From contig NZ_AP025487.1 of the NCBI RefSeq assembly GCF_024347475.1, positions 1,488,001 to 1,552,000 on the forward strand: a stretch of 64,000 nt of DNA, given 5' to 3'. The DNA is from Vibrio fortis. Lineage in GTDB: Bacteria; Pseudomonadota; Gammaproteobacteria; Enterobacterales; Vibrionaceae. The notes beneath the pieces were generated by a model that worked only from the letters and a program-made list of their open reading frames with translations, searched no databases and was not told the DNA's origin. A program made the translations under genes and the position numbers. Positions 17,850 through 64,000 of this stretch are shown one piece after another (position 1 is the first letter of the stretch; every line of letters starts with the position of its first letter).

Positions 17850-19271
17850 TTAGAACAAGTTTTTATCTCGAACTAATTCTCGTGGGAGGCCGTTTTTAAT
17901 TCGGTTGCCGACCCATTTCCCAAGGCCAATTATTGCGCCTTCAAACTTAACAAGAACTTCACCTTTACCTGATAAACTTTCAGGGCGAACGTCACGTCCC
18001 ATGAACCACTCACGAGCATCTTCAATGGTAAGCTCAACGACATTCGATTCGTTTCCTTTAGCCAAGGATGTTGCGACTTGATGCTGCCAGCGATAGCCTT
18101 TCTTATGTGTCTCGGCGATCTTGATGCCCATGCGCGAGAATCGTAGCTCACCAATCATAGGCTCAAGTGCAGCCGGGAATAACCACACATCCTTGTCGCG
18201 TAGCCAAACCTGAGCGTCTGTTGGTAGTGAGATATCCAAAGCAGTATTGAGGTGATCCTCAACTTCTTGTTGTATTTTTTTCGACGCTTTTTCAAATGGG
18301 AATTTACCCATGCGTTTTTTCACCTGAGGTGGCGTCACAGAAGCCACTTTGCGTATACGAGCCACGAAGAAACCTTCTGAATCGTATACTTGTGGGAAGA
18401 TATGTAGGAATCCTTCTTCAGTTAGGGTCGCTTTGGCATCCTCGAATAAACCTTCAAGAGACTCGAACTCCACGGCATCACCAAAGGTTTCTTTTAAGTG
18501 GTGACAAACTTGTTGGTTCTCTTCTGTACTCAGAGTACATGTTGAATAAACCAGAACCCCATCGGTTTTAAGTGCATGGAAAGCACTCTCAATCAAATCT
18601 TTTTGTGTGTTCGCGATATCGACTACTGAGTCGTAGGTCCAGTTTTTCATCGCGTCTGCATCTTTGCGTACAGTACCTTCTCCAGAGCATGGCGCGTCGA
18701 GCAAAACTGCATCAAAGGTCTCTGGTAACCAGCCACCAAATACACGGCCATCAAAGTTACTCAACGCCGCGTTGCGAACACCACAGCGTTCGATGTTAGC
18801 ATGAAGGACTTTTACACGACTTGCTGCGTATTCGTTGGCAACCAGAACGCCTTCGTTATTCATTAAAGCAGCGATCTGTGTTGTTTTAGAGCCTGGCGCC
18901 GCCGCGGTATCCAGAACAGCACTATATTCTTCATTTCCAAAGAACAGTGCTGAAGGTGGCATCATAGAGCTGGCTTCTTGAATGTAGAAAAGACCAGACA
19001 TATGCTCAGATGTATTTCCAAGTGGAACTACACTCTCATCTGCTGTGATCCAAAATCCAGTATCACACCATGGCACCGCTTCTAGTTCCCAGCCTTTGTC
19101 TTTTGCACGCGCTAAGAAGTCTTCAACACTGATCTTAAGTGTGTTGACTCGAATGCTTTTGCGTAGTGGTTTTTGGCATGACTCGATAAATGAAGCCATG
19201 TCCAGATGACTCGGCATAAAGGTTTCGATGTGAGTAAGAAACTCTTTGGGGATATAGACGTTAGCGTGCAA
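17850..19271 (-). CDS. rsmF: 16S rRNA m5C1407 methyltransferase RsmF
   Basis: From the chosen TTG the protein is 473 residues. It has the RsmF N-terminus (VYIPKEFLTHIETFMPSHLD), the RKSIRVNTLKISVEDFL segment, the SAM domain (LDTAAAPGSKTTQIAALMNN), the catalytic DAPCSGEGTVRKD and STCTLSTEENQ cysteine motifs, and the C-terminal PUA-like region. It methylates C1407 of 16S rRNA. The reading frame stays open to 19376, but that region contains the letB terminator and gives no family similarity. TTG at 19271 therefore fits the family N-terminus best. It follows letAB as in enterics. Confidence 0.92.
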   Translation of the reverse strand: MHANVYIPKEFLTHIETFMPSHLDMASFIESCQKPLRKSIRVNTLKISVEDFLARAKDKGWELEAVPWCDTGFWITADESVVPLGNTSEHMSGLFYIQEASSMMPPSALFFGNEEYSAVLDTAAAPGSKTTQIAALMNNEGVLVANEYAASRVKVLHANIERCGVRNAALSNFDGRVFGGWLPETFDAVLLDAPCSGEGTVRKDADAMKNWTYDSVVDIANTQKDLIESAFHALKTDGVLVYSTCTLSTEENQQVCHHLKETFGDAVEFESLEGLFEDAKATLTEEGFLHIFPQVYDSEGFFVARIRKVASVTPPQVKKRMGKFPFEKASKKIQQEVEDHLNTALDISLPTDAQVWLRDKDVWLFPAALEPMIGELRFSRMGIKIAETHKKGYRWQHQVATSLAKGNESNVVELTIEDAREWFMGRDVRPESLSGKGEVLVKFEGAIIGLGKWVGNRIKNGLPRELVRDKNLF

Positions 19272-52641: not shown

Positions 52642-52795
52642 ATTTTAAAGTTGCTCAAACCGGACATTACTATATTGCTCTTACAAAATCAGTGCGTATT
52701 ATCTATCTTATGTTAAATTCCCTACTAGCAGTAAATTGTAGATGTCTAATTTACTTACATAATAAATTCAACTAGTTAAAACGATTTCCAATTTC

Positions 52796-52838
52796 TTGAC
52801 AAAGCAAAATCTCCATACCTACTCTTGTACATAAGAGT
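52796..52838 (+). promoter_or_regulatory. Recombinase operon promoter with overlapping palindrome
   Basis: A perfect TTGACA -35 lies at 52796-52801. A weak -10 (TACTCT, 52820-52825, 18-base spacing) is covered by the palindrome ACTCTTgtacatAAGAGT (52821-52838). Such a layout suggests repression by a dimeric protein or autoregulation. The palindrome also places the TTG at 52825 at the promoter, so translation should start at the ATG at 52864. Confidence 0.5.
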
Positions 52839-52863
52839 CAAATCTACGAATGGGAATTTGTAT

Positions 52864-54318
52864 ATGTATAAGGTTGAAAATTGCAATGGTAAGTTTTATT
52901 GCTTACTGGATATGGTGACCACTATGCCACCTTTGCTTGCATTTCGCTGGACCGAACAAGAACTCATGGAGAAATCACTAGCGACACAAAAAAGCTATCT
53001 CACATCTTTAAAGCTGTTTTATGACTTCTGGTTAGCCAAATATAGCATTACCCTTGACTATGCTTTGCATCTGAAAAACTACCAAGACTTTGATGTTATA
53101 ACGCACGAACTAATGGCCTTCTGGGATTATCTACTTGCGGATAAACAAATTGCTAATGTGATCAAAATACCATCATCGAACAACAGCCAGAAATCGCTGG
53201 CTAAGAAAAAACGAACGGCAGCTAAACATTGCCAGGTGATCTGCAATTTTATTCAGTTCTTGTCGGGGGTTTATTTGACTACGGCCTACTTTGATGAAGA
53301 TCCTCATCAGCTGCGTCGTTTGCGCACCGAAATCAAACTGCGTTTGAAAGATTCAAAACGTAAATTCGCGAAATGGAAGAAATCCAATAAAGAAGCCCCA
53401 GCTTACAGCACCCTCCGCAGCATGACCAGCGAGCAATTTGAAGATTTTTTCCGTATTCTAACGCCAGATGTGATGAAGCCAGTTCCAGTTACATTACCAG
53501 ACGGCAGTATTCAAACTACCTTCACCCTTATTAAGGAAAACCCACTAAATCCCATTGCCAGTTACGATGTGCAGATGCGTAATTACCTGCTGACAACTTT
53601 GCTCGTTCGCTATGGTTTGCGTATTGGAGAGTCATTGCTACTGCGCAAACAATCCTTCCTTCCATTAAGGAGTGACTCTAGTAAAGTGATCATGCGAGTT
53701 CGTAATTTGGAAGAGGATGATTTAAACGATGCCACCATGAACGATGTGCGTCACAACAAGCCACAAATTAAGACAGTCGATAGCGTTCGTGATGTGGAAA
53801 TCACAGCCGACGACTACAATAAAATTCAAATCTATTTCGAATTCATCCGTCCTAATGAATGTGAGCACGATTTCATCTTCGCTTCCTCTTTGAAACCCTA
53901 CAAACCGATATCCTACACCACCATTCAGACTCAATTTAAACTAGTCGCTGAATCGTTTAAGACACATTTCCCAGAACATTTCAACCCACAATATGCTGAC
54001 TTCATCAGTGAAACTATCACCCCTCATTGGCTTCGTCATACTTGGGCCTATGCAATGTTGTCGGCCATTTATGAGAAGGAAAAGCGTCGGTATATTGACT
54101 ACGGAGTTGTCAATATTAAGGGGATTATGGAGGATGCGCAGGATCAATTGAGAGTTATGGGAGGATGGGCTAAGAAGTCCATTATGCCAGCCAAATACGC
54201 TAAGCGATTCATTCAAGAGAATGCCAATCAAACGCTCATGGAGGTTTATCGCAATCACTTTAATGTAAACCGTGACACTGATTTTAATAAGGATCAATGG
54301 GATGCTGCATTCAGTTAA
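52864..54318 (+). CDS. Tyrosine recombinase, IntA-like
   Basis: From the ATG the protein is 484 residues. A SAM-like N-terminal DNA-binding part (TEQELMEKSLATQKSYLTSL) precedes the catalytic domain. Visible catalytic features are the first arginine in VRYGLRIGESLLLRK, the HxxRH box in TPHWLRHTWAYAM and a candidate tyrosine nucleophile in SIMPAKYAKRF. All core residues appear present, so it should be active. The frame can start at TTG 52825, but that lies in the promoter. The stop overlaps the next gene by 17 bases. Confidence 0.85.
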   Translation: MYKVENCNGKFYCLLDMVTTMPPLLAFRWTEQELMEKSLATQKSYLTSLKLFYDFWLAKYSITLDYALHLKNYQDFDVITHELMAFWDYLLADKQIANVIKIPSSNNSQKSLAKKKRTAAKHCQVICNFIQFLSGVYLTTAYFDEDPHQLRRLRTEIKLRLKDSKRKFAKWKKSNKEAPAYSTLRSMTSEQFEDFFRILTPDVMKPVPVTLPDGSIQTTFTLIKENPLNPIASYDVQMRNYLLTTLLVRYGLRIGESLLLRKQSFLPLRSDSSKVIMRVRNLEEDDLNDATMNDVRHNKPQIKTVDSVRDVEITADDYNKIQIYFEFIRPNECEHDFIFASSLKPYKPISYTTIQTQFKLVAESFKTHFPEHFNPQYADFISETITPHWLRHTWAYAMLSAIYEKEKRRYIDYGVVNIKGIMEDAQDQLRVMGGWAKKSIMPAKYAKRFIQENANQTLMEVYRNHFNVNRDTDFNKDQWDAAFS

Positions 54319-55852
54319 GAAAGAAGATCACAGAGGTATTAGCTCTGTATTCACACCGGAACAGGTTGAGTTTATAAATAGCATGGAACTACCGAGTGTG
54401 ATGGCGATTACCCAAGCCTCTAAGTTCGACACTCCATATGTTCAGACGAAAAATGACTGTTGGGAATATGTCCGCATGGGGCGTACCCATCTTGAAAAAT
54501 TTGACTTAGACGATCTCAGCAACAAGCTGTTGAAATGGCTATCTTCAATACATACGGAATGTCACACCGCACCTCTTGGGTATATTCGGTTCAACGCATT
54601 AAAAAAGCTTCTTAAAGAGTCAAAGAACGTCTCATTTACCCAATTTAGACAACGACTTGATGTACTCTCAAAGACTACCAACTCAATGGACTACTATCTA
54701 CTCAAGTCGGCCACTCAAACATTGATACGTCATCGGTTCCCTGGTTTCGATATTGATGATGAGGAAATTTTGAATTGTATAGCGTCCCCAAATGTTACTG
54801 ACCCCTTTCTTCGCTATCAAGAAGTTGAAGATACCATGCCCACCCACTTGAAGAACCTTATAGCCAATCGTTTGGTGGAATTTGGGACAGAGGAAGGGCT
54901 CAGATCATTGGCTGACAAGGACTTAAAGAACCTCTGCGTATTGGGCTTATCGTTTGCTATAGGCCCACGACCACAACAGTTTTCCATGCTAATCGGTAGC
55001 TCAGTAAAGCTGGTCACAGTCAATCATATAACTGCACTAAAGCTCTACGAAGTGGCCGTCCCTTTAGCAAAACAGCCAACAGTGCCCGTTGACGTACCAA
55101 AAGTGAATTTGAGTCAGGAAATAGGATGTTTAATAGATGAATATAAACATCGCTTTAACATTGGGGATGACGATGCACTATTTCCTTATACTGGGGACGT
55201 CAATAAGACATTATCGCGGGAAATCCATAAAGCGTTAAATGATGCGTTGCTCTTCATTCAGCCGAATGATGTAAAAGAAAAAATTCTCTCAAAAAAAATG
55301 CATCGTCTTATTTATACCGCCTATGACTTTCGCCACAACATTGGTCATTCGATGGCAATGGCTGGTGCCAGTGCTGAGGAAATCGCCATGGTGCTCGGTC
55401 AAACAACTACAGTTGCGGCGCAATATTACATCATGTCTACCCCTGAACTGGCACTGCAGAAGCATAAGGCTCTCGGTCAAAACCCAGTCTGGAAAGACAT
55501 GATGGGGCTGTTGCTCACCGGTTATATTACCAATGAGTCTGAATGGTCTGGCAAAAAGGTCTCAGGTATGCTTAAGGGGAAATTATTTCACCGTATCGGT
55601 GGCTGTAACCGCACACAAGATAAGTGCCATCTTGCGTTGGTCCGCTCTTGTTATGCCTGCTTTTATTTTCGGCCGTTTAAAAGCTTGAACAAGCATGAAG
55701 CCGTCCTTGAAGTCATCACGCATGAACTATTTGAATTGGTCAAAACGTCGCAAGACGCAGGCCAGCATAACAACCCACTGATTGACGCTGCCACACAATC
55801 CAAGAATGAAATAGAAATGGTCATTAACCGCCTCAAGGAGGGCTTACGATGA
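54302..55852 (+). CDS. Tyrosine-recombinase-fold protein, CAP-like
   Basis: From the ATG with AAGGA eight bases upstream the protein is 516 residues. It has an integrase-like C-terminal domain: box I arginine in FAIGPRPQQFSML, box II YDFRHNIGHSMAM and C-terminal LGQTTTVAAQYYIM. The first histidine of HxxR is tyrosine here (55322-55324), and the spacing to the final tyrosine is normal. A cysteine-rich tail follows (GGCNRTQDKCHLALVRSCYA). It may be a poorly active or architectural partner. GTG at 54272 is an alternative start. Its stop overlaps intB by ATGA. Confidence 0.78.
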   Translation: MLHSVKKEDHRGISSVFTPEQVEFINSMELPSVMAITQASKFDTPYVQTKNDCWEYVRMGRTHLEKFDLDDLSNKLLKWLSSIHTECHTAPLGYIRFNALKKLLKESKNVSFTQFRQRLDVLSKTTNSMDYYLLKSATQTLIRHRFPGFDIDDEEILNCIASPNVTDPFLRYQEVEDTMPTHLKNLIANRLVEFGTEEGLRSLADKDLKNLCVLGLSFAIGPRPQQFSMLIGSSVKLVTVNHITALKLYEVAVPLAKQPTVPVDVPKVNLSQEIGCLIDEYKHRFNIGDDDALFPYTGDVNKTLSREIHKALNDALLFIQPNDVKEKILSKKMHRLIYTAYDFRHNIGHSMAMAGASAEEIAMVLGQTTTVAAQYYIMSTPELALQKHKALGQNPVWKDMMGLLLTGYITNESEWSGKKVSGMLKGKLFHRIGGCNRTQDKCHLALVRSCYACFYFRPFKSLNKHEAVLEVITHELFELVKTSQDAGQHNNPLIDAATQSKNEIEMVINRLKEGLR

Positions 55853-58284
55853 AAGATAATTACGAAGCCTTAGAACAATTTATCACGGTTCAAAAGACCT
55901 TTTTCAAGACGGCTTTATTGCCTGATGTGAATATCGGCATCACTGACCCAGACAACTATTATTCGTGGGAAACGAATACTTGGACGTATGGACCTTCGTC
56001 ATGCGGCTTTCTCGCAAAGGCACATAGAGTTCTTACTTTCTTTGAAGTGAAGACCGCCCGTGCTGGCGGAATGTTCAAACCCAATGAAAAAGAAATTAAA
56101 AGGTTTGAAATCAATAATATTTTTTCAGACTTCATTAAAGCCTATTGCGTCTCCCTCAATCATAATCGTAACCCATCCGGGCAGTCTGTATTGGCACAGC
56201 AGTTGATTTTAAAAAGGGTTTACGTCCGTATGGTGATGGCAGGCGTTGAACCTCACCCAATCAATATTACATCCGATTTTCTGCAAGATGCGGTAGACAT
56301 GCTAGCGCAATCACGCACTGGCAACAATGCGCTTATTAATGCCGCCAAAGACTACGATGATGCCAATGTAATTGCCCAAAAAATTAACTACTTAGGGTTT
56401 ACGTTGACGCCCATCGAAATCAAAAAGAAACAAAGAGGCATTGCGACACGCACAACCAAGGCCGGTAAGAAAGCCAAAAAGGTAAAGTATGGAGAAGACC
56501 TCGATCAAGATGAGCATGAAAAGAACCTCTCCATCCAGACCTTCTTAAATGTGGTGGCTCTGCGAGGCATGGTCCAGCACGATGGCGAGCGGATCATGCT
56601 GAACCTTGTGTTACTACTGTTGGTCACCGGATTTCGCCATATGGAAGCAGCTACCATACGTTACAACAGCTATAAAATAGTGGAAATTGAAGACCAGGTC
56701 ACTAAAGCGCTGATGGAGCAACGTGGTTTGCCAACGTTCTATGTCGGAATCGTCTATTTGGGTGAAAAAGGTGCCGGCCATCGGACTCACTGGCTTGAAC
56801 CATTCGCCGTGGAGGTTGTTGAGGAACTTTGGGTCGACACCATTGTGTTAACCGAGAAACTTCGTGCCCAAATTGAGTATGTTCGAAACAAGGGCTTTGA
56901 GTCCTACCTGCCGAAAGCGTGGCATACAAGAAGTACCAACGTGGTCGAAATGAATGAGCGACTAGTCAACCTCGATGCCATTGTAGATGAGGTTTATGAA
57001 TCCACTGCAAATTCTGCTATCAATAGCCGTGGCCGCTCCGCATTAAGGGATAACGCTAAGAAGAAAATTAGTAACTCAGGGAGCGGTATTGAACCTCATT
57101 CTGTCGTTGAACTTGATGCTATCCGAAAAGAATTTCGTTATACACAGGCGGATATAGAATGCTTTATTCGACATTTCATCGAAAGTACTCCAGAACTATC
57201 AAATGACTTTATTTTTCGTCAAACAGACTCAAAAAATAAAGTCATTAATGAGATCCCTTATGAGTCCTTGCTGTTCATTATTCCCAATGGCAGTGCTGCG
57301 ACTAAGCGTAGCGGTGCAATGAAAGTAGTTCCTCAGATCATCACCGGACCTATTCTGCGTCCTTTCCTCGGTTATCCTAAAGAAAATAACCGTGGAAGGA
57401 GCATCTTTGCCAAATACAATCTCACTGATGAAAATGGTGAGTTCACCATGATGTACAGTCACACCCCGCGCCATGGTTTGAATACCTTCATTGCCATTGC
57501 AGGAATAGCTGACCACCTTCAAGCGATGTTTATGGGCCGTAAAGATTTCACACAAAATGAACATTATCAGCACCTTGCTATTACCGAGCGAGCGATCTCA
57601 ACGAAACTGGTAACGGCAGGAAACACAGACTCGTATTTTAAACAAGAAACAGCATTAGAGCGCATTAAAAAGCAAGGCAAGATCGGTTTGAACCCCAAAT
57701 TGACCTCAGCAAATGCACTAGCTCAAGCCATAAATACTCATACGACTGCGCAAGATAAAGCTGCGTTCGTCATTGATGTGGTAAGTAATTCAAACAGTAC
57801 TGCTTTTAGTGAGTTTGATGAAATGTTTGGCATGTTGAGCGAGAAGGAAAAGGAAGAAGCAGCAGCGCGTCATACTGACTTGAATCCCATGGATGTTGGT
57901 AGTTGCCGTCGCAAACTAACAACATTCCAATGTCCATATAACATAAAGTGCCAAGACGGAAGCCCATGTCCATATTTCACACTTACCGGATGTGAAGGTG
58001 AGCTTCAGAAAGTGGAACAATTGGCAGCGAGCCTTGAGTCTGAAATTGCGATCATCAATGAAATGGAAATGGCTGGCCATATGGAGGTAGCCGAGGCTGA
58101 TGAAATCCTAGCAACTCTCAATCTTCGCAAGGAGCACATCCAGTACCATCTCGGTCAATCCCAGGCGTTTGAAGACGAGAAAGTTCAAATCAACTTGTTG
58201 GAATTGGACAACATGCAGAAACCTCAAATGCTGTCCAGCCTGTTCGCGCTTGAGCAACGTAAGCTGGAAAAAACAAAGAGATAG
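55849..58284 (+). CDS. Very long tyrosine recombinase, IntB-like
   Basis: The 811-residue protein starts inside the previous stop (ATGA), with AAGGAGG seven bases upstream. The C-terminal half carries the recombinase core: arginine in LLVTGFRHMEAATIRY, HTPRHGLNTFIAIAG as HxxRH, and a nucleophile candidate in TQNEHYQHLAI. A cysteine cluster (FQCPYNIKCQDGSPCPYF) and a helical region follow. The N-terminal ~230 residues are specific to this class. The length far exceeds ordinary phage integrases (about 400). Confidence 0.82.
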   Translation: MKDNYEALEQFITVQKTFFKTALLPDVNIGITDPDNYYSWETNTWTYGPSSCGFLAKAHRVLTFFEVKTARAGGMFKPNEKEIKRFEINNIFSDFIKAYCVSLNHNRNPSGQSVLAQQLILKRVYVRMVMAGVEPHPINITSDFLQDAVDMLAQSRTGNNALINAAKDYDDANVIAQKINYLGFTLTPIEIKKKQRGIATRTTKAGKKAKKVKYGEDLDQDEHEKNLSIQTFLNVVALRGMVQHDGERIMLNLVLLLLVTGFRHMEAATIRYNSYKIVEIEDQVTKALMEQRGLPTFYVGIVYLGEKGAGHRTHWLEPFAVEVVEELWVDTIVLTEKLRAQIEYVRNKGFESYLPKAWHTRSTNVVEMNERLVNLDAIVDEVYESTANSAINSRGRSALRDNAKKKISNSGSGIEPHSVVELDAIRKEFRYTQADIECFIRHFIESTPELSNDFIFRQTDSKNKVINEIPYESLLFIIPNGSAATKRSGAMKVVPQIITGPILRPFLGYPKENNRGRSIFAKYNLTDENGEFTMMYSHTPRHGLNTFIAIAGIADHLQAMFMGRKDFTQNEHYQHLAITERAISTKLVTAGNTDSYFKQETALERIKKQGKIGLNPKLTSANALAQAINTHTTAQDKAAFVIDVVSNSNSTAFSEFDEMFGMLSEKEKEEAAARHTDLNPMDVGSCRRKLTTFQCPYNIKCQDGSPCPYFTLTGCEGELQKVEQLAASLESEIAIINEMEMAGHMEVAEADEILATLNLRKEHIQYHLGQSQAFEDEKVQINLLELDNMQKPQMLSSLFALEQRKLEKTKR

Positions 58285-58399
58285 AGTCGTAACTGTTAAA
58301 ACTAGTTTAATCGAAAAGCATAAGAATAAAGCACATTTGGCCTTTGCATTAATACTCGAAGTGTCATCAATGCTATGCGAAGCCATTCAGGAGGTATAA

Positions 58400-58855
58400 A
58401 TGATCGATAAAATTAAAGGTAAAGAACTAAATACGGTTATTGAAAAGGAGTTAATTCGAATGTGTGATGAGGGCTTCGAGCAATCTCCAATCACACAAGC
58501 AAATCTATTTAGACGGTTAAACGCCAAAGGATTAATCAGTACACGTTCAACACTCACAAGTCGAAAGAGTCTCATTGAATCTTTTGCTAAACAGCAGAAA
58601 GAGGCAGTGGCTGGCACATTAGGTAAAACCTTGAAAGACACAGCATCAATGACACGAGCAGATTTAGAGAGAGCTAATGCAAGTCTAATAGAGCAAGTAA
58701 AAACTGCACGCAAGATGCTACAGGGTAATACTGAATGCATTATTGACATAGCAAAAACAATTCGGCTACAAAACCAAGTGCGTAATATTGAGCGTTGCTT
58801 ATCCCCATACCTCATTCGTGAATTACACCAGAGCCAGAAGCAAGACAAAAAATGA
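58400..58855 (+). CDS. Small helical accessory protein, Srap/TnpC-like
   Basis: The 151-residue charged, helical protein has an N-terminal segment resembling a winged or KfrA-like helix-turn-helix (FEQSPITQANLFRRLNAKGL, then STRSTLTSRKSLIESF) followed by a coiled coil. AGGAGG precedes the ATG by five bases. Its place after three recombinases matches the accessory gene of such modules; the function is inferred from position. Confidence 0.65.
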   Translation: MIDKIKGKELNTVIEKELIRMCDEGFEQSPITQANLFRRLNAKGLISTRSTLTSRKSLIESFAKQQKEAVAGTLGKTLKDTASMTRADLERANASLIEQVKTARKMLQGNTECIIDIAKTIRLQNQVRNIERCLSPYLIRELHQSQKQDKK

Positions 58856-59214
58856 GAATAAGAGTGACAATTGGCGGTGCCCAAAAGTCGTGTGTCGTTG
58901 TTCCGTGACATAAAGAGGTTAGTGCAAATAGATTGGTTATCGATTTTGGAGTGCCCTATCCTCCGAAACATATAAAGTAGTGAACATTTTTGATTAAACG
59001 TAATTTGCAGTATCAGAAATTTAGTTTGGTACGCCGACGGTAAGTTTACACTCGAACAAATAATACAAGACTTCGTAGGGTGTTTAAACTTGTATACCAG
59101 TAATGTTTTGACTAGATAATAAGTAATTGATTTAACTTAACTAATTTACCATAAAGTACATAATCACCATTATTTAAACTACCGTTTAAATAATGGTGAT
59201 TATAGGTCAAAAAT
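58856..59214. other. 359-base convergent region between the recombinase module and the cargo operon
   Basis: No gene is seen. The sequence is AT-rich and ends in the perfect 20-bp inverted repeat listed separately. Confidence 0.5.
59160..59203. repeat. Perfect 20-bp inverted repeat with 4-base loop
   Basis: ATAATCACCATTATTTAAAC (59160-59179) and its exact complement (59184-59203) flank TACC. It lies 11 bases past the stop of the HEPN gene. The stem is long but AT-rich and lacks a clear T-run on either strand. It may be a terminator, an mRNA-stabilising hairpin or a recombination-related palindrome. Confidence 0.8.
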
Positions 59215-59748
59215 TTACTGTGCTAGTGCATTTTCAGTTGCTTCAACCAAGCTTTTGAAAAATCTAATACATTTTTCTGCTTCTGGTTTACTAATAAGAT
59301 GAGTGGTTTGCTTATCCAAAACAGAACGATGAACAGCATCACCACGCTTTTTTATCCATTCATTTAATTTACTTCGAGTTCTCTCTGGTTCTTCATAACC
59401 TGGCCATGACCATGACGTCGTCACATCTATGCCGAGAAAACGCTCAAAGAGATCTTTAGTTTTCTTACTATTAGGTGTATGAAAAAATTTTAGCTCTTTT
59501 TCTAACGAGTTGCCGATAAAGTTACCTATCTGAGACCCTTGAAGTACCCTGGTTTGAATTTCGACCTCTTCACTAATCTTATCTTCTACATAAGTTTCCC
59601 ACGCAGTTAAGGACATTATTAGCGCGGCGCGTTTAAGCTCTTCAGGGTCACGTCCTAAATCTGGGATACTCTTCATATGTTCATAGGCCTCTAAAATCCT
59701 TTCAGCGTCTTGAATAGATACATCGAACACATTTTTTGCTCGGCACAT
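59215..59748 (-). CDS. HEPN-domain protein (RiboL-PSP-HEPN-like), probable RNase toxin or effector
   Basis: The 177-residue all-helical protein has an N-terminal helix, KRAALIMSLTAWETYVEDKI, typical of RiboL-PSP/MAE_28990-type HEPN proteins, and the HEPN catalytic motif RxxxxH as KKRGDAVHRS. Family members are metal-independent endoribonucleases in toxin-antitoxin and anti-phage systems. GAGGA precedes the ATG by six bases. It begins 19 bases after the VWA gene and is the last gene of the operon. Activity is inferred from the motif. Confidence 0.75.
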   Translation of the reverse strand: MCRAKNVFDVSIQDAERILEAYEHMKSIPDLGRDPEELKRAALIMSLTAWETYVEDKISEEVEIQTRVLQGSQIGNFIGNSLEKELKFFHTPNSKKTKDLFERFLGIDVTTSWSWPGYEEPERTRSKLNEWIKKRGDAVHRSVLDKQTTHLISKPEAEKCIRFFKSLVEATENALAQ

Positions 59749-59767: not shown

Positions 59768-61315
59768 TTAACGCCTTAATTCCACCCACTCTGAGATGTA
59801 ATGCATTGGGTCACAAATTTTGCTCATTGATGTATAGTGAGAATTACCGATTTGTATACCGTGTACCTGTAGCCCATGCTTCTCTCTTCGGTTGCTAATT
59901 TTCCGACTTAACCCCGAAGTCACTGGGAACTCACCATCACTCACTAACAAAACATCGGCTTTATGCCATTCTTCTGAATCACACTTTTCCAGCGCTTTGT
60001 TGAGTGGCCCTTCAGCATCTGTACCACCTCCAAAAGACATCGTGAGGAAGTTAAGTAGGTCATTAACCCCCGAAGCATCTAACGTCAAATCAAGCTCACT
60101 AACCTCCTTCTTACTTCCAAAGAGATAAACGTAGCAACGCCGTTGCTCTTTGTAGGCCGCTTTCAAGCATTCCAAAACGGTCGCTTTGGCAATGTTTTCT
60201 GGTAATCCCTTCATTGAGCCTGAAGTATCCAAGCAAATCACCATCGGACCTCGTTTTTTATTGCTTTTATTACCCTGTTTTTCACTAATGGACTCTTGTT
60301 CTATTAGCTCTTCTGTTTCCAAAAACTCAGTCCCTTCCACTGAGTAAGAAAGTAAAGCATGCTCTGCACGCTTAGCATGCCAGAGTTTTTTAAGCACAAG
60401 GTTAGTTAACAGCGAGGCTTCTTGAGGCAACATTCTAGAAATCGAATCTGAACGAGTAATGCCTTTAGTTTCCATTGGAACAAGAGGTGTCGTCACATAC
60501 TTCTCATGACGATCAGCGACACTCATTTTAATTACGATTTTTTCAAGTACTGCCCCTTCGGCTTGATCTTCTCGCCCTAAGTCCCGAATCAAGCTTTGTA
60601 ACTTGGGAAGCTTTTTAACAAGCTTGTTCAACCTAACAATATCTAGCCAACCATGGCTTTGAAAAACGCCTTTTGATAAATCAAACCCTAGACCGGTGAT
60701 CAACCCAAGCTCAGTAAATACCTCTTCTAATTGTGACCATACCGCTAGCCTCTCTTGCCATACAACAGGCAAGATACCAACCCTATCCTGTTCAGAGATC
60801 AGCTTCTGCCAGATCTCCTCCGAGGCAGTTTCGGCAATTAGCGCCCGCTGTGCGTTAGTCATAGACAGAGGTTTGACTTGTTTACGCTTACTCTTTTTTT
60901 TCTCTAAAGCTTGCTTGATTTGATTTAACGCTTCATCTTCTAGCTTCTTAATAAGGTCATTTATCAGAGGAGATGCCTTAGATTGAAGCTCGTCTATTGT
61001 CGTAAGAATGTCAGATAGCAGAGCATCTGTGACCTCTTCATTCTGAACGCAGTAACGATTTAATCCAGTGTCTTCTAGCACTTTACAAATCGCATCAGTC
61101 AGTGTCTGGGGGGCTAATGGAGTTAAACACGTCGGATTCCCTCCCATAAGAAGTTCATTTCTGGAATTAACTAAAGACTCACACCGCTCTAATAACTCAC
61201 CATCAGTATTTGTAATAACAGCCGGAAGAAACTTCTCCGGCACATTATCGAGGCATGTAAATTGACTATCCATGTTAAATAGCGGAAAGCCAATCTGGTA
61301 CGATTCTCTAATCAC
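59768..61315 (-). CDS. VWA-domain protein, ViaA-like
   Basis: The 515-residue protein has a helical N-terminal two-thirds and a C-terminal von Willebrand A domain with complete MIDAS: VICLDTSGSM, SFGGGTDAEG and VLLVSDGEF. Length, layout and the C-terminal IxGIQIG...HYISEW end resemble E. coli ViaA (483 residues), the partner of the AAA+ ATPase RavA. GTG at 61315 is chosen because AAGGAG lies six bases upstream and it overlaps the previous gene's stop by 8 bases (GTGATTAG). The longest frame begins at 61339. Confidence 0.82.
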   Translation of the reverse strand: MIRESYQIGFPLFNMDSQFTCLDNVPEKFLPAVITNTDGELLERCESLVNSRNELLMGGNPTCLTPLAPQTLTDAICKVLEDTGLNRYCVQNEEVTDALLSDILTTIDELQSKASPLINDLIKKLEDEALNQIKQALEKKKSKRKQVKPLSMTNAQRALIAETASEEIWQKLISEQDRVGILPVVWQERLAVWSQLEEVFTELGLITGLGFDLSKGVFQSHGWLDIVRLNKLVKKLPKLQSLIRDLGREDQAEGAVLEKIVIKMSVADRHEKYVTTPLVPMETKGITRSDSISRMLPQEASLLTNLVLKKLWHAKRAEHALLSYSVEGTEFLETEELIEQESISEKQGNKSNKKRGPMVICLDTSGSMKGLPENIAKATVLECLKAAYKEQRRCYVYLFGSKKEVSELDLTLDASGVNDLLNFLTMSFGGGTDAEGPLNKALEKCDSEEWHKADVLLVSDGEFPVTSGLSRKISNRREKHGLQVHGIQIGNSHYTSMSKICDPMHYISEWVELRR

Positions 61316-62822
61316 ACAGCTCTCCTTCCACAGGATCATCAGAAGAAACTAGCTCTGCAATTTCAATACTTGGGTCTTCTTCCAAAGGCAAACAACTAAA
61401 CCCATCAACAAGTTTATTAGCTCTATTTAACAGCTTTTCAGCCTGCTTCAATGACTCATTTAGTGCGTCGACAATTTCTGGTAATAAACTGCAATCTAAC
61501 CAAAGGTGACTATCGAAGTATTGTGCAACTGTCTGCAATTCTTGCTTAACAGTATCAATGTGCTGCTCGATGTTATTCACTATTTCTTGAACGCTTAATA
61601 CTCTACTTTCGATATGAGCATTGGAAAATCGAGTACTACCAATCAATGGATTGTTCTCCACTTTTTCCCTCCAAGGTTCGAACCGACCATAATTGCTGTT
61701 CGTAGTTTTACTTCCGTCATAGTCTTGATATAGCAATCTACCGTTTTTATCCGTCGCTTGACGTTCACTAGACTTTTTAGTCGTTTCATTACCATTACAA
61801 TCGATATAGAGTAGTTTTCCTTGAGTATCTTTTTTATGCGGGCAGCTTTCTTCTGTTAACCTACTTTCCCATACACTCAAAACTTGTAATAGGCGTGATG
61901 GTGGCGTTTTTCCATCAACAGTCACCAATCGCTTGTAGAGCTCTTGTAGGCCTTCAAATTGCTTTGGTTGCTCCCATAAGCAATGCGGCAAAATCCAAGT
62001 ATCATAAATACTGGTTTCGTTAAATCCAGAAGTGAAAGCCGACACTTTTATTAATTTCACTAGCTTACGCCAACGGCGGTCAGATACCTTTATATCTTGC
62101 GATTTCAGGTAGTTTTTGAACTCTTTACAGGCCTCAATCGTAGCGGCAGTTAACTCCACTTTTTCAGCTAGCTTCTGTACCTCATCTAGGTCATCAAGCT
62201 TTAAGCGAACATTCAGTTCAGGATCAAACTTTTTTAACGTCCCGTTCAGAAGTTGTTCAAATGACTCATCAGACACAGGCGACACATAAGAACGCAGAAT
62301 GAATCTATCGTATAAAGCGCTGAGCTCTTCGCCTTCCGGTAACTCGTTACTTGCTGCTACAACAGAGATTAAAGGAACATTGACTCTTCGGTTGCCGTTA
62401 TCAAACTGGCGTTCGTTCAGCAAAGTTAGAAGACTGTTTAAGATTGCACTGTTTGCTTTAAAGATTTCATCGATAAACGCCACAGATGCTTCAGGCAGGT
62501 ACCCACTAGTAAGCCGGTTATAACGATCGTCTTCCAACGCTTTGATCGAAAGCGGCCCAAACAGCTCTTCTGGAACAGAAAAACGCGTCACTAATCGTTC
62601 AAAGTAATTAGCCTCAACAAAGACACTTTTCAGTCGCTTTGCCAATTCACTTTTAGCCGTTCCTGGAGGCCCAACGAGTAAGACATGCTCACCGGAGAGT
62701 GCAGCTAGCATCATTAGTCGAACTTGATGCTCTCTTTCCAATAATCCATCACTCATCTGAGCCAATAGGGTTTGGAGCTTGTCTTTTCTATTCATAGTTG
62801 TTGCACATACTGTCGTTGTCAC
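61308..62822 (-). CDS. MoxR-family AAA+ ATPase, RavA-like
   Basis: The 504-residue protein (RavA 498) has LQTLLAQMSDGLLERE-, Walker A GPPGTAKS (51-58), FSVPEELFGPLSIKAL, Walker B VAFIDEI (114-120) and the sensor region VVAASNELPEGEELSALYDR. The wording follows RavA closely. The C-terminal part includes two copies of a 17-residue motif (332-348 and 358-374) in the region where RavA has its LARA insert. The start is GTG with AAGGA upstream. It is 47 bases after the nuclease gene and coupled to the VWA gene by an 8-base overlap. It probably remodels a target together with the VWA protein. Confidence 0.85.
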   Translation of the reverse strand: MTTTVCATTMNRKDKLQTLLAQMSDGLLEREHQVRLMMLAALSGEHVLLVGPPGTAKSELAKRLKSVFVEANYFERLVTRFSVPEELFGPLSIKALEDDRYNRLTSGYLPEASVAFIDEIFKANSAILNSLLTLLNERQFDNGNRRVNVPLISVVAASNELPEGEELSALYDRFILRSYVSPVSDESFEQLLNGTLKKFDPELNVRLKLDDLDEVQKLAEKVELTAATIEACKEFKNYLKSQDIKVSDRRWRKLVKLIKVSAFTSGFNETSIYDTWILPHCLWEQPKQFEGLQELYKRLVTVDGKTPPSRLLQVLSVWESRLTEESCPHKKDTQGKLLYIDCNGNETTKKSSERQATDKNGRLLYQDYDGSKTTNSNYGRFEPWREKVENNPLIGSTRFSNAHIESRVLSVQEIVNNIEQHIDTVKQELQTVAQYFDSHLWLDCSLLPEIVDALNESLKQAEKLLNRANKLVDGFSCLPLEEDPSIEIAELVSSDDPVEGELCD

Positions 62823-62869: not shown

Positions 62870-64000
62870 TTATTCCGAGCACCACACGCGTAAGTCAGCT
62901 AATGTTGTTTTCTTTATAAAAAGTTCTGTTGTTCCAAGCAGTTTGAGCATCTCTTCTGTAATTTGTTCTTTACTCACTCCCGGTTGTACCACTGCGACTT
63001 GAAACTCGATAGGTGTAGTGCGTGAGCGATTCTTGATGCTTTCCAACTGAGCCATAGTCCCTTTTAGAAAACGGCTTTGACCTCGCCCTTTCCAAGCTCC
63101 TTCACGCTTCTGAATATGTTTATATAAATATGGAAGACCAACATGTTTCCAACGTACAGAACGTTGAGCCTGCCCGCAGACTTCATAAAGATCACTTAGT
63201 CGTCTTCCAGGCTCACTACCATGAGAGTATTTACAGTGGTACAGGCTTAGAATTATCTTGTCTGGCAGAGATTTAATTGCCACTAAATCAGCAGCTTCTC
63301 CATGGTCATCATCATTGATTACGATGTCGTACTCTGAGTCGATAAGCTGCCAAGTTCGATGCTGTACTGTATTAGTATTTAAGTTCGCACCCATTGACTC
63401 TTTCGTTATGTCTACAGCCCATTCGATAGGATTCAAAGCGTCAGGAGAATAACAACCGATATTGTCCCTCACCTCAACCCAGTAACAGTTATAAGAAAAT
63501 GAACCATCAGCGTAGTAGACGAATATTGGGTCGTGATACATCTCTTCGATGAGCGTTCTAGGTTCAGAGTTTCCTACTTGAATGGAGATAGGCTCACCGT
63601 CTAACAATTGATAGTCATAACCTTTAGACAGCTCTTGAGCTATCAGAAGTTTGTATTTTGATGTGGCTTGAGAGGACTCAAAAACCAGAATAGGTTCTTT
63701 GGTTTGTTCATCCCATGTCACTTTTAAGTCGACTTCATACAAGTAGAATGAAGATGAACCAAAATAGATTTTGACGCCTTCTTCATTACGAATTTGAAGT
63801 TGTTCCCCCCACTGAATCGATATCGGCATATAAGGATGAGGCTTGTCTATTTTCTGCGGTCTTAAGAAGTCACGTGTAATGTTTGTATCATCATTACCAC
63901 CTTCTACTACTTTATCCCATGCTGCTTTTGCCCAGAGTAACCAATCGGCGATTGAACCTGCTTTGGGAGACCAAACTTTACCTTTACGCTCAGAACACCC
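62870..64000 (-). CDS. C-terminal part of a large helicase-associated nuclease-like protein (5' end outside window)
   Basis: The frame is open to base 64000, past the internal ATG at 63829. The segment before that ATG is protein-like (SIADWLLWAKAAWDKVV), so the gene starts beyond the window. The visible ~376 residues contain a beta-rich part and a PD-(D/E)xK-like core: GEAADLVAIKSLPDKI with an acidic residue, then LSLYHCKYS with the lysine, and RLSDLYEVCGQAQRSVRW. I recall this block at the C-terminus of long DEAD/DEAH helicases in defence islands; the helicase part itself is not in view. It is the first visible gene of the operon. Confidence 0.65.
   Translation of the reverse strand, partial: GCSERKGKVWSPKAGSIADWLLWAKAAWDKVVEGGNDDTNITRDFLRPQKIDKPHPYMPISIQWGEQLQIRNEEGVKIYFGSSSFYLYEVDLKVTWDEQTKEPILVFESSQATSKYKLLIAQELSKGYDYQLLDGEPISIQVGNSEPRTLIEEMYHDPIFVYYADGSFSYNCYWVEVRDNIGCYSPDALNPIEWAVDITKESMGANLNTNTVQHRTWQLIDSEYDIVINDDDHGEAADLVAIKSLPDKIILSLYHCKYSHGSEPGRRLSDLYEVCGQAQRSVRWKHVGLPYLYKHIQKREGAWKGRGQSRFLKGTMAQLESIKNRSRTTPIEFQVAVVQPGVSKEQITEEMLKLLGTTELFIKKTTLADLRVWCSE

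Follow-up and report, generated by a model that had tools for sequence, protein, structure and literature searches.

How did four neighbouring genes, three of them recombinase-like, come to lie directly beside dif, the site that the cell uses to untangle its chromosomes, on chromosome 1 of Vibrio fortis, and what kind of element do they serve? The stretch analysed here, referred to as the window, covers 64,000 nucleotides (contig NZ_AP025487.1, positions 1,488,001 to 1,552,000 of the forward strand). We consider it highly probable, from comparison of the sequences and junctions described below, that the locus holds a GInt/Tn6571-like element whose genes A, B and C, together with a helper, D, insert a circular form at the outer edge of the XerD arm of dif.

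We first focus on the genes themselves. The co-oriented quartet A-B-C-D spans 52825-58855 on the plus strand, with coding overlaps among its first three members. Gene A (ginA-like, 52825-54318, 497 aa) encodes a tyrosine recombinase that matches Pfam Phage_integrase (PF00589) at 6.6e-08, passing the curated cutoff, and the alignment of its relatives keeps R266, H401-x-x-R404-H, W448 and Y458; its start is probably the conserved ATG at 52864, which is favoured over the TTG at 52825. Gene B (ginB-like, 54272-55852, 526 aa) encodes a recombinase-fold protein that matches NCBIfam integrase_1 at 3.9e-16, under that family's curated cutoff, and its invariant residues in the alignment are R233, R354-H355 and Y386, with a Tyr instead of the catalytic His in HxxR. 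The large tyrosine recombinase encoded by gene C (ginC-like, 55849-58284, 811 aa) matched no NCBIfam or Pfam family at the E-value limit used and is assigned by alignment and fold search: R263, H538-x-x-R541-H (HxPRH), R564 and Y573 are invariant across 16 proteins, and a Cys cluster lies at the C-terminus. The top PDB matches of its predicted model, a low-confidence one (pLDDT 65), are almost all tyrosine recombinases, every one at E > 0.001, and hint at IntI, Cre, XerH and Tn1549 Int among its structural relatives; PDB sequence searches using gene A and gene C profiles gave zero matches. Gene D (ginD-like, 58400-58855, 151 aa), a small protein aligned over 13 members and found at the same position in all of them, likewise falls into no NCBIfam or Pfam family at the same E-value limit and has a single weak PADLOC match, to the ZorA coiled-coil region. 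The A-B-C-D order is found again in 15 other loci, at identities as low as about 27%, and the arrangement is thus not due to chance; class-wide sampling of genomes revealed no additional family members. Judged by sequence, the identity of A, B and C as a tyrosine-recombinase trio, with D as a small companion, is confirmed.

The element is best termed GInt/Tn6571-like rather than a proven GInt, and this assignment is suggested because homology, gene order, imperfect direct repeats and the AT-rich 3' end agree. First of all, A, B and C are homologous, each to its counterpart and in order, to the proteins of an element on a Pseudomonas aeruginosa megaplasmid (hhalign probabilities 99.8-99.9%), itself probably of Tn6571 type. 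Second, the GInt elements (ginABCD; Tn6571 and Tn6488 subfamilies) likewise have a four-gene operon of three recombinases and a small protein at one end, with cargo right after D, as here from 59215. Third, they have an AT-rich 3' end of 0.2-0.4 kb, with which the last 392 bp of the V. fortis element (GC 0.33) agree, and imperfect direct repeats of 10-17 nt, to which the two 11-base repeats flanking the V. fortis element, TTATGTTAAAT and GTAAGTTAAAT, correspond; both also carry defence or restriction-modification (RM) cargo. In GInt as published, all four genes are needed and a circular intermediate is formed. The published GInts, on the other hand, target a gene for an ABC transporter, a gene for a ribonucleotide reductase and the end of ssb (PMC5385486), whereas the V. 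fortis element is found at the edge of dif. Furthermore, GinC reportedly lacks the first catalytic arginine, whereas R263 is invariant in 16/16 C proteins here; since the loss was reported for a small published set, it may not be a defining feature. RIT elements, considered by description only, have three tandem tyrosine recombinases as well (PMC10214605), and Gamma-mobile-trio (GmtXYZ) was rejected, with no such NCBIfam match among the proteins.

The chromosome 1 dif, AGTGCGTATTA-TCTATC-TTATGTTAAAT, occupies 52691-52718 on the plus strand and forms attL in the comparison with empty relatives. It has 0 mismatches to the Vibrio consensus over 22 arm bases (0.00 expected in shuffles), and the genome has one dif on each of its three contigs, that of the first at the element edge. 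A flank search of relatives identified the 130 bp at the left edge, which include dif, as a short sequence that recurs in Vibrio genomes, usually once per replicon; matP is located 3 kb away. The element starts at 52713, the outer dif edge, and the block GTTAAAT (52712-52718, plus strand), inside which the crossover is placed, is common to attB, attL and attR in an alignment of eight elements. A non-coding left end follows (52719-52863, GC 0.30). The right junction lies outside the window, at the window equivalent of 80676-80681 (18676-18681 of the V. fortis locus L003), so that the element measures 27,963 bp; attR contains no dif at up to 3 arm mismatches. In some members of the family, the joined ends have weak inverted repeats (4-7 of 8-10 bases). 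No tRNA or known RNA (Rfam) was found at the element edge, and such a target was rejected for that reason. The dif centre (52702-52707) reads TCTATC; that of relatives is mostly TGTATA or TGTACG, and one other locus (L058) also has TCTATC.

Junctions were compared with those of Escherichia coli K-12, an empty Klebsiella plasmid and empty Vibrio relatives. In K-12, attB reads TTATG-TTAAAT-CATGTCTG; in strain GF66.2, attL reads TTATG-TTAAAT followed by the element, and attR reads CTCAACATAAG-TTAAAT-CATGTCTG. K-12 thus has CATGTCTGAG directly after dif, and GF66.2 has the element after the same dif and, 11 kb on, CTCAACATAAG-TTAAAT-CATGTCTGAG, which is the K-12 sequence again. The Klebsiella plasmid pMH15-269M_1, set against its empty counterpart, shows the same junction and right-end motif as E. 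coli. A G-TTAAAT right end is also present in four other Vibrio genomes (G005, G072, G096 and G108), an Enterobacterales genome (G779) and V. fortis, and in V. fortis and these four Vibrio genomes the host sequence from downstream of dif follows GTTAAAT at attR. These alignments show one rule in eight elements: dif is left whole at attL, the crossover falls in GTTAAAT, where the XerD arm ends on its outer side, and attR is without dif. The boundary evidence is direct where a genome has an empty reference (E. coli and Klebsiella), and the V. fortis attB, derived from other Vibrio species, is less exact.

The association extends well beyond these cases. The left end lies at dif or a dif-like site, always in the same orientation, in 20/22 loci with enough flank (13 + 7 loci), on Vibrio chromosomes 1 and 2, the E. 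coli chromosome, other Enterobacterales and plasmids; L056 and L059, in which the sequence ends too near gene A, were left out of this count. L079, in which gene C is broken, and L080 are divergent order-level relatives; neither has a dif in the 1.4-1.9 kb upstream, and dif targeting is thus not universal in the wider family. Homologues of C and D are present in 266 of 5426 complete E. coli genomes. A junction query matched 5234 of the 5426, and 105 of these run on into the element, with hipA-dif joined to its left end, a count that takes in a single element subfamily; among the matches listed, those from element-free genomes typically end at query base 225 or 226, the last base of dif being 225. 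Some Klebsiella IncHI1B plasmids (L061 12001-13006, NZ_CP080352) match only as far as the point where the same dif-like site starts, beyond which their cargo differs and includes TIR and macro-domain genes, and this site may thus be a general hotspot.

We propose that the trio, with D, would insert a circular form at the edge of dif, on the outer side of its XerD-binding arm. The comparisons put the crossover inside GTTAAAT, the seven bases with which dif ends; the complete dif stays with the host at attL, and attR is made up of the right-end motif of the element, GTTAAAT and the old host flank, with no second dif because the XerC arm is absent. Strand exchange would be carried out by A and C over a six-base overlap, GTTAAA, with B and D acting as architectural helpers, and targeting would rest on the XerD arm, which varies hardly at all among gammaproteobacterial chromosomes and also occurs on many plasmids. 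The element would thereby gain a constant and selected target, one per replicon, while leaving dimer resolution undamaged, and without a second dif XerCD could not delete the island. The cargo consists mostly of anti-phage genes on the opposite strand.

The cargo operon is convergent with A-B-C-D, on the minus strand, and runs 16.7 kb beyond the window end. Within the window it encodes a RiboL-PSP-HEPN protein (59215-59748, Pfam PF18735, 1.8e-22), a ViaA-like vWA protein (59768-61339, family match), a RavA-like MoxR AAA+ ATPase (61308-62822, Pfam bpMoxR, 3.8e-62) and the C-terminal part of a 1108-aa ResIII/DEAD helicase (62870-64000); beyond it follow a protein of no family, an AAA_15 ATPase, the S, M and R subunits of a type I RM system, a CARF-sigma54 regulator, a second helicase, an Xre regulator and attR. 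Cargo proteins of relatives include BrxC, MkoC, HEC-06, a type I REase, AriA/OLD-like, HamB and PD-Lambda-4, and anti-phage genes (of BREX, Hachiman, Mokosh, type I RM and other systems) are a recurrent cargo. The initial annotation had read part of the locus correctly: its three recombinases with a small accessory gene correspond to the four syntenic genes at 52825-58855, with recombinase residues in A, B and C; its defence-like convergent operon holds HEPN, vWA, MoxR, helicase and type I RM genes on the minus strand; and a boundary could be defined, with attL and attR set by comparison with empty relatives from 52713 to the window equivalent of 80681. It had also taken a defence cargo to be notable; defence genes on E. 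coli GInts are already published (PMC10121019), and the cargo alone is thus not notable.

Several features of the cargo are recorded here for their own sake. The C-terminal part of a type I restriction subunit is duplicated in V. fortis (L003 9635-10276, 10273-10842 and 10839-14378), and the copies are separated by a 189-aa gene that matches no family. A module of helicase, ~178-aa protein and Xre regulator sits at different positions in two related elements (L051 8481-10823, in element orientation, and L003 15972-18283), which suggests modular cargo exchange. A relative on a Vibrio harveyi plasmid (L007 15550-26436, NZ_CP154268) carries large adenylation-domain (NRPS-like) genes, not defence genes, beside the trio.

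Between gene D and the cargo lies an internal X-like site (59144-59203), made up of an inverted XerD-arm-like box, ATTTACCATAA, then 6 bp and a hairpin of two 20-nt arms (59160-59179 and 59184-59203) that are 100% complementary. The Vibrio dif sites examined have the inverted box ATTTACCATAA and a hairpin-like sequence about 95-130 bp downstream, and X-like counterparts are present in V. fortis at L003 18773-18832 and beside the dif of its chromosome 2 and third replicon (L101 and L102), and in L024-L031. The elements' own copy sits either before gene A or after gene D, and the inverted pair resembles the layout of the CTXphi attP. It is conceivable, though rather unlikely, that the trio is a Xer-like system that recognises the XerD arm, perhaps XerD, with insertion and excision tied to dimer resolution at division, and that the hairpin site, mimicking X, serves in this coupling as a regulatory or single-strand recombination site. 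The X-like site also bears on whether the locus holds two nested dif insertions, in which a trio element without cargo, its end near 59050, would have inserted ahead of a defence island that was already there. A site that adjoins dif in hosts lies right after gene D here (59144) and likewise in L048, L007 and L058, and a GGTAAG-like motif occurs near 59030; however, the host X site persists to the right of attR in V. fortis and G108, so that the internal copy is an extra one, and in other members the internal X precedes gene A, within an unbroken element that includes the cargo and has just one attR. We thus regard nested insertions as improbable.

Less probable still is that host XerCD inserted the island through a dif-like site, as an IMEX, with the trio serving something else. 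The dif location is indeed used by IMEX, CTXphi and the gonococcal island among them (PMC5357621, PMC9765430), and EludIMEX-1, at 29 kb, is similar in size. XerCD exchanges strands between the arms of dif, however, and IMEX products have dif-like sites at both ends (PMC5357621, PMC9765430); since the exchange is central, both junctions should contain a dif-like site with a hybrid centre. Here, occupied sites in E. coli and Klebsiella have the same dif centre as the empty ones, the junction lies at the outer XerD-arm edge, no XerC arm is present at attR, and the trio is always at the dif end of the element. Junctions that leave one dif thus favour the element's own recombinases. IMEX (CTXphi, TLCphi, the gonococcal island, EcloIMEX) are likewise found at dif and in principle keep it functional, but they rely on host XerCD and a dif mimic, whereas the V. 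fortis element would use its own recombinases and has no second dif. EcloIMEX was set aside as a relative: it is located at a dif-like site between setB and yeiP, and its papers do not mention a recombinase trio. Tailless Vibrio prophages, compared by description, also occupy dif of chromosomes 1 and 2 with an integrase and defence genes, but they are phages, and their authors call the mode of integration inconclusive (PMC11630473).

The strand-biased circularizing elements (SE; intA-cap-intB-srap), the class named in the initial annotation, are hardly credible as the answer: SEs are common in Vibrio (PMC10214605), and SE-6283/Tn6283 and SE-6945 share the gene number, the layout with a large third recombinase and a small fourth gene, and a 6-base overlap, but BLASTP, hhalign and HMM searches detected no similarity of A-D to the proteins of the published SE on pAQU1 (545/614/671/161 aa), no homology to SE Tfp or Srap was found, and gene B keeps R233, R354-H355 and Y386, whereas Tfp, the second SE gene product, lacks the RHRY motif, and at 526 aa the gene B protein falls below the 550-aa floor applied to Tfp (PMC10214605). 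The homology and architecture are GInt/Tn6571-like instead; the hallmark of SEs is a strand-biased circle, with no empty site formed.

The most informative feature of the locus, insertion at the dif edge, was absent from the initial annotation. In the open-licence literature we found no report of dif as the target of a recombinase-trio family, and SE and GInt papers do not mention it; it may have been described earlier elsewhere. There is one dif per chromosome, under strong selection and common to most gammaproteobacteria and many plasmids, which makes it an ideal landing site. If the proposed GInt/Tn6571-like mechanism holds, a family of trios that lands harmlessly at dif, ranging over Vibrio chromosomes 1 and 2, E. 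coli and conjugative plasmids, would offer a testable alternative to Xer hijacking for islands at dif. Sites of one kind on plasmids and chromosomes could let such an element pass from one to the other, and the family would help to explain why defence islands recur at the terminus.
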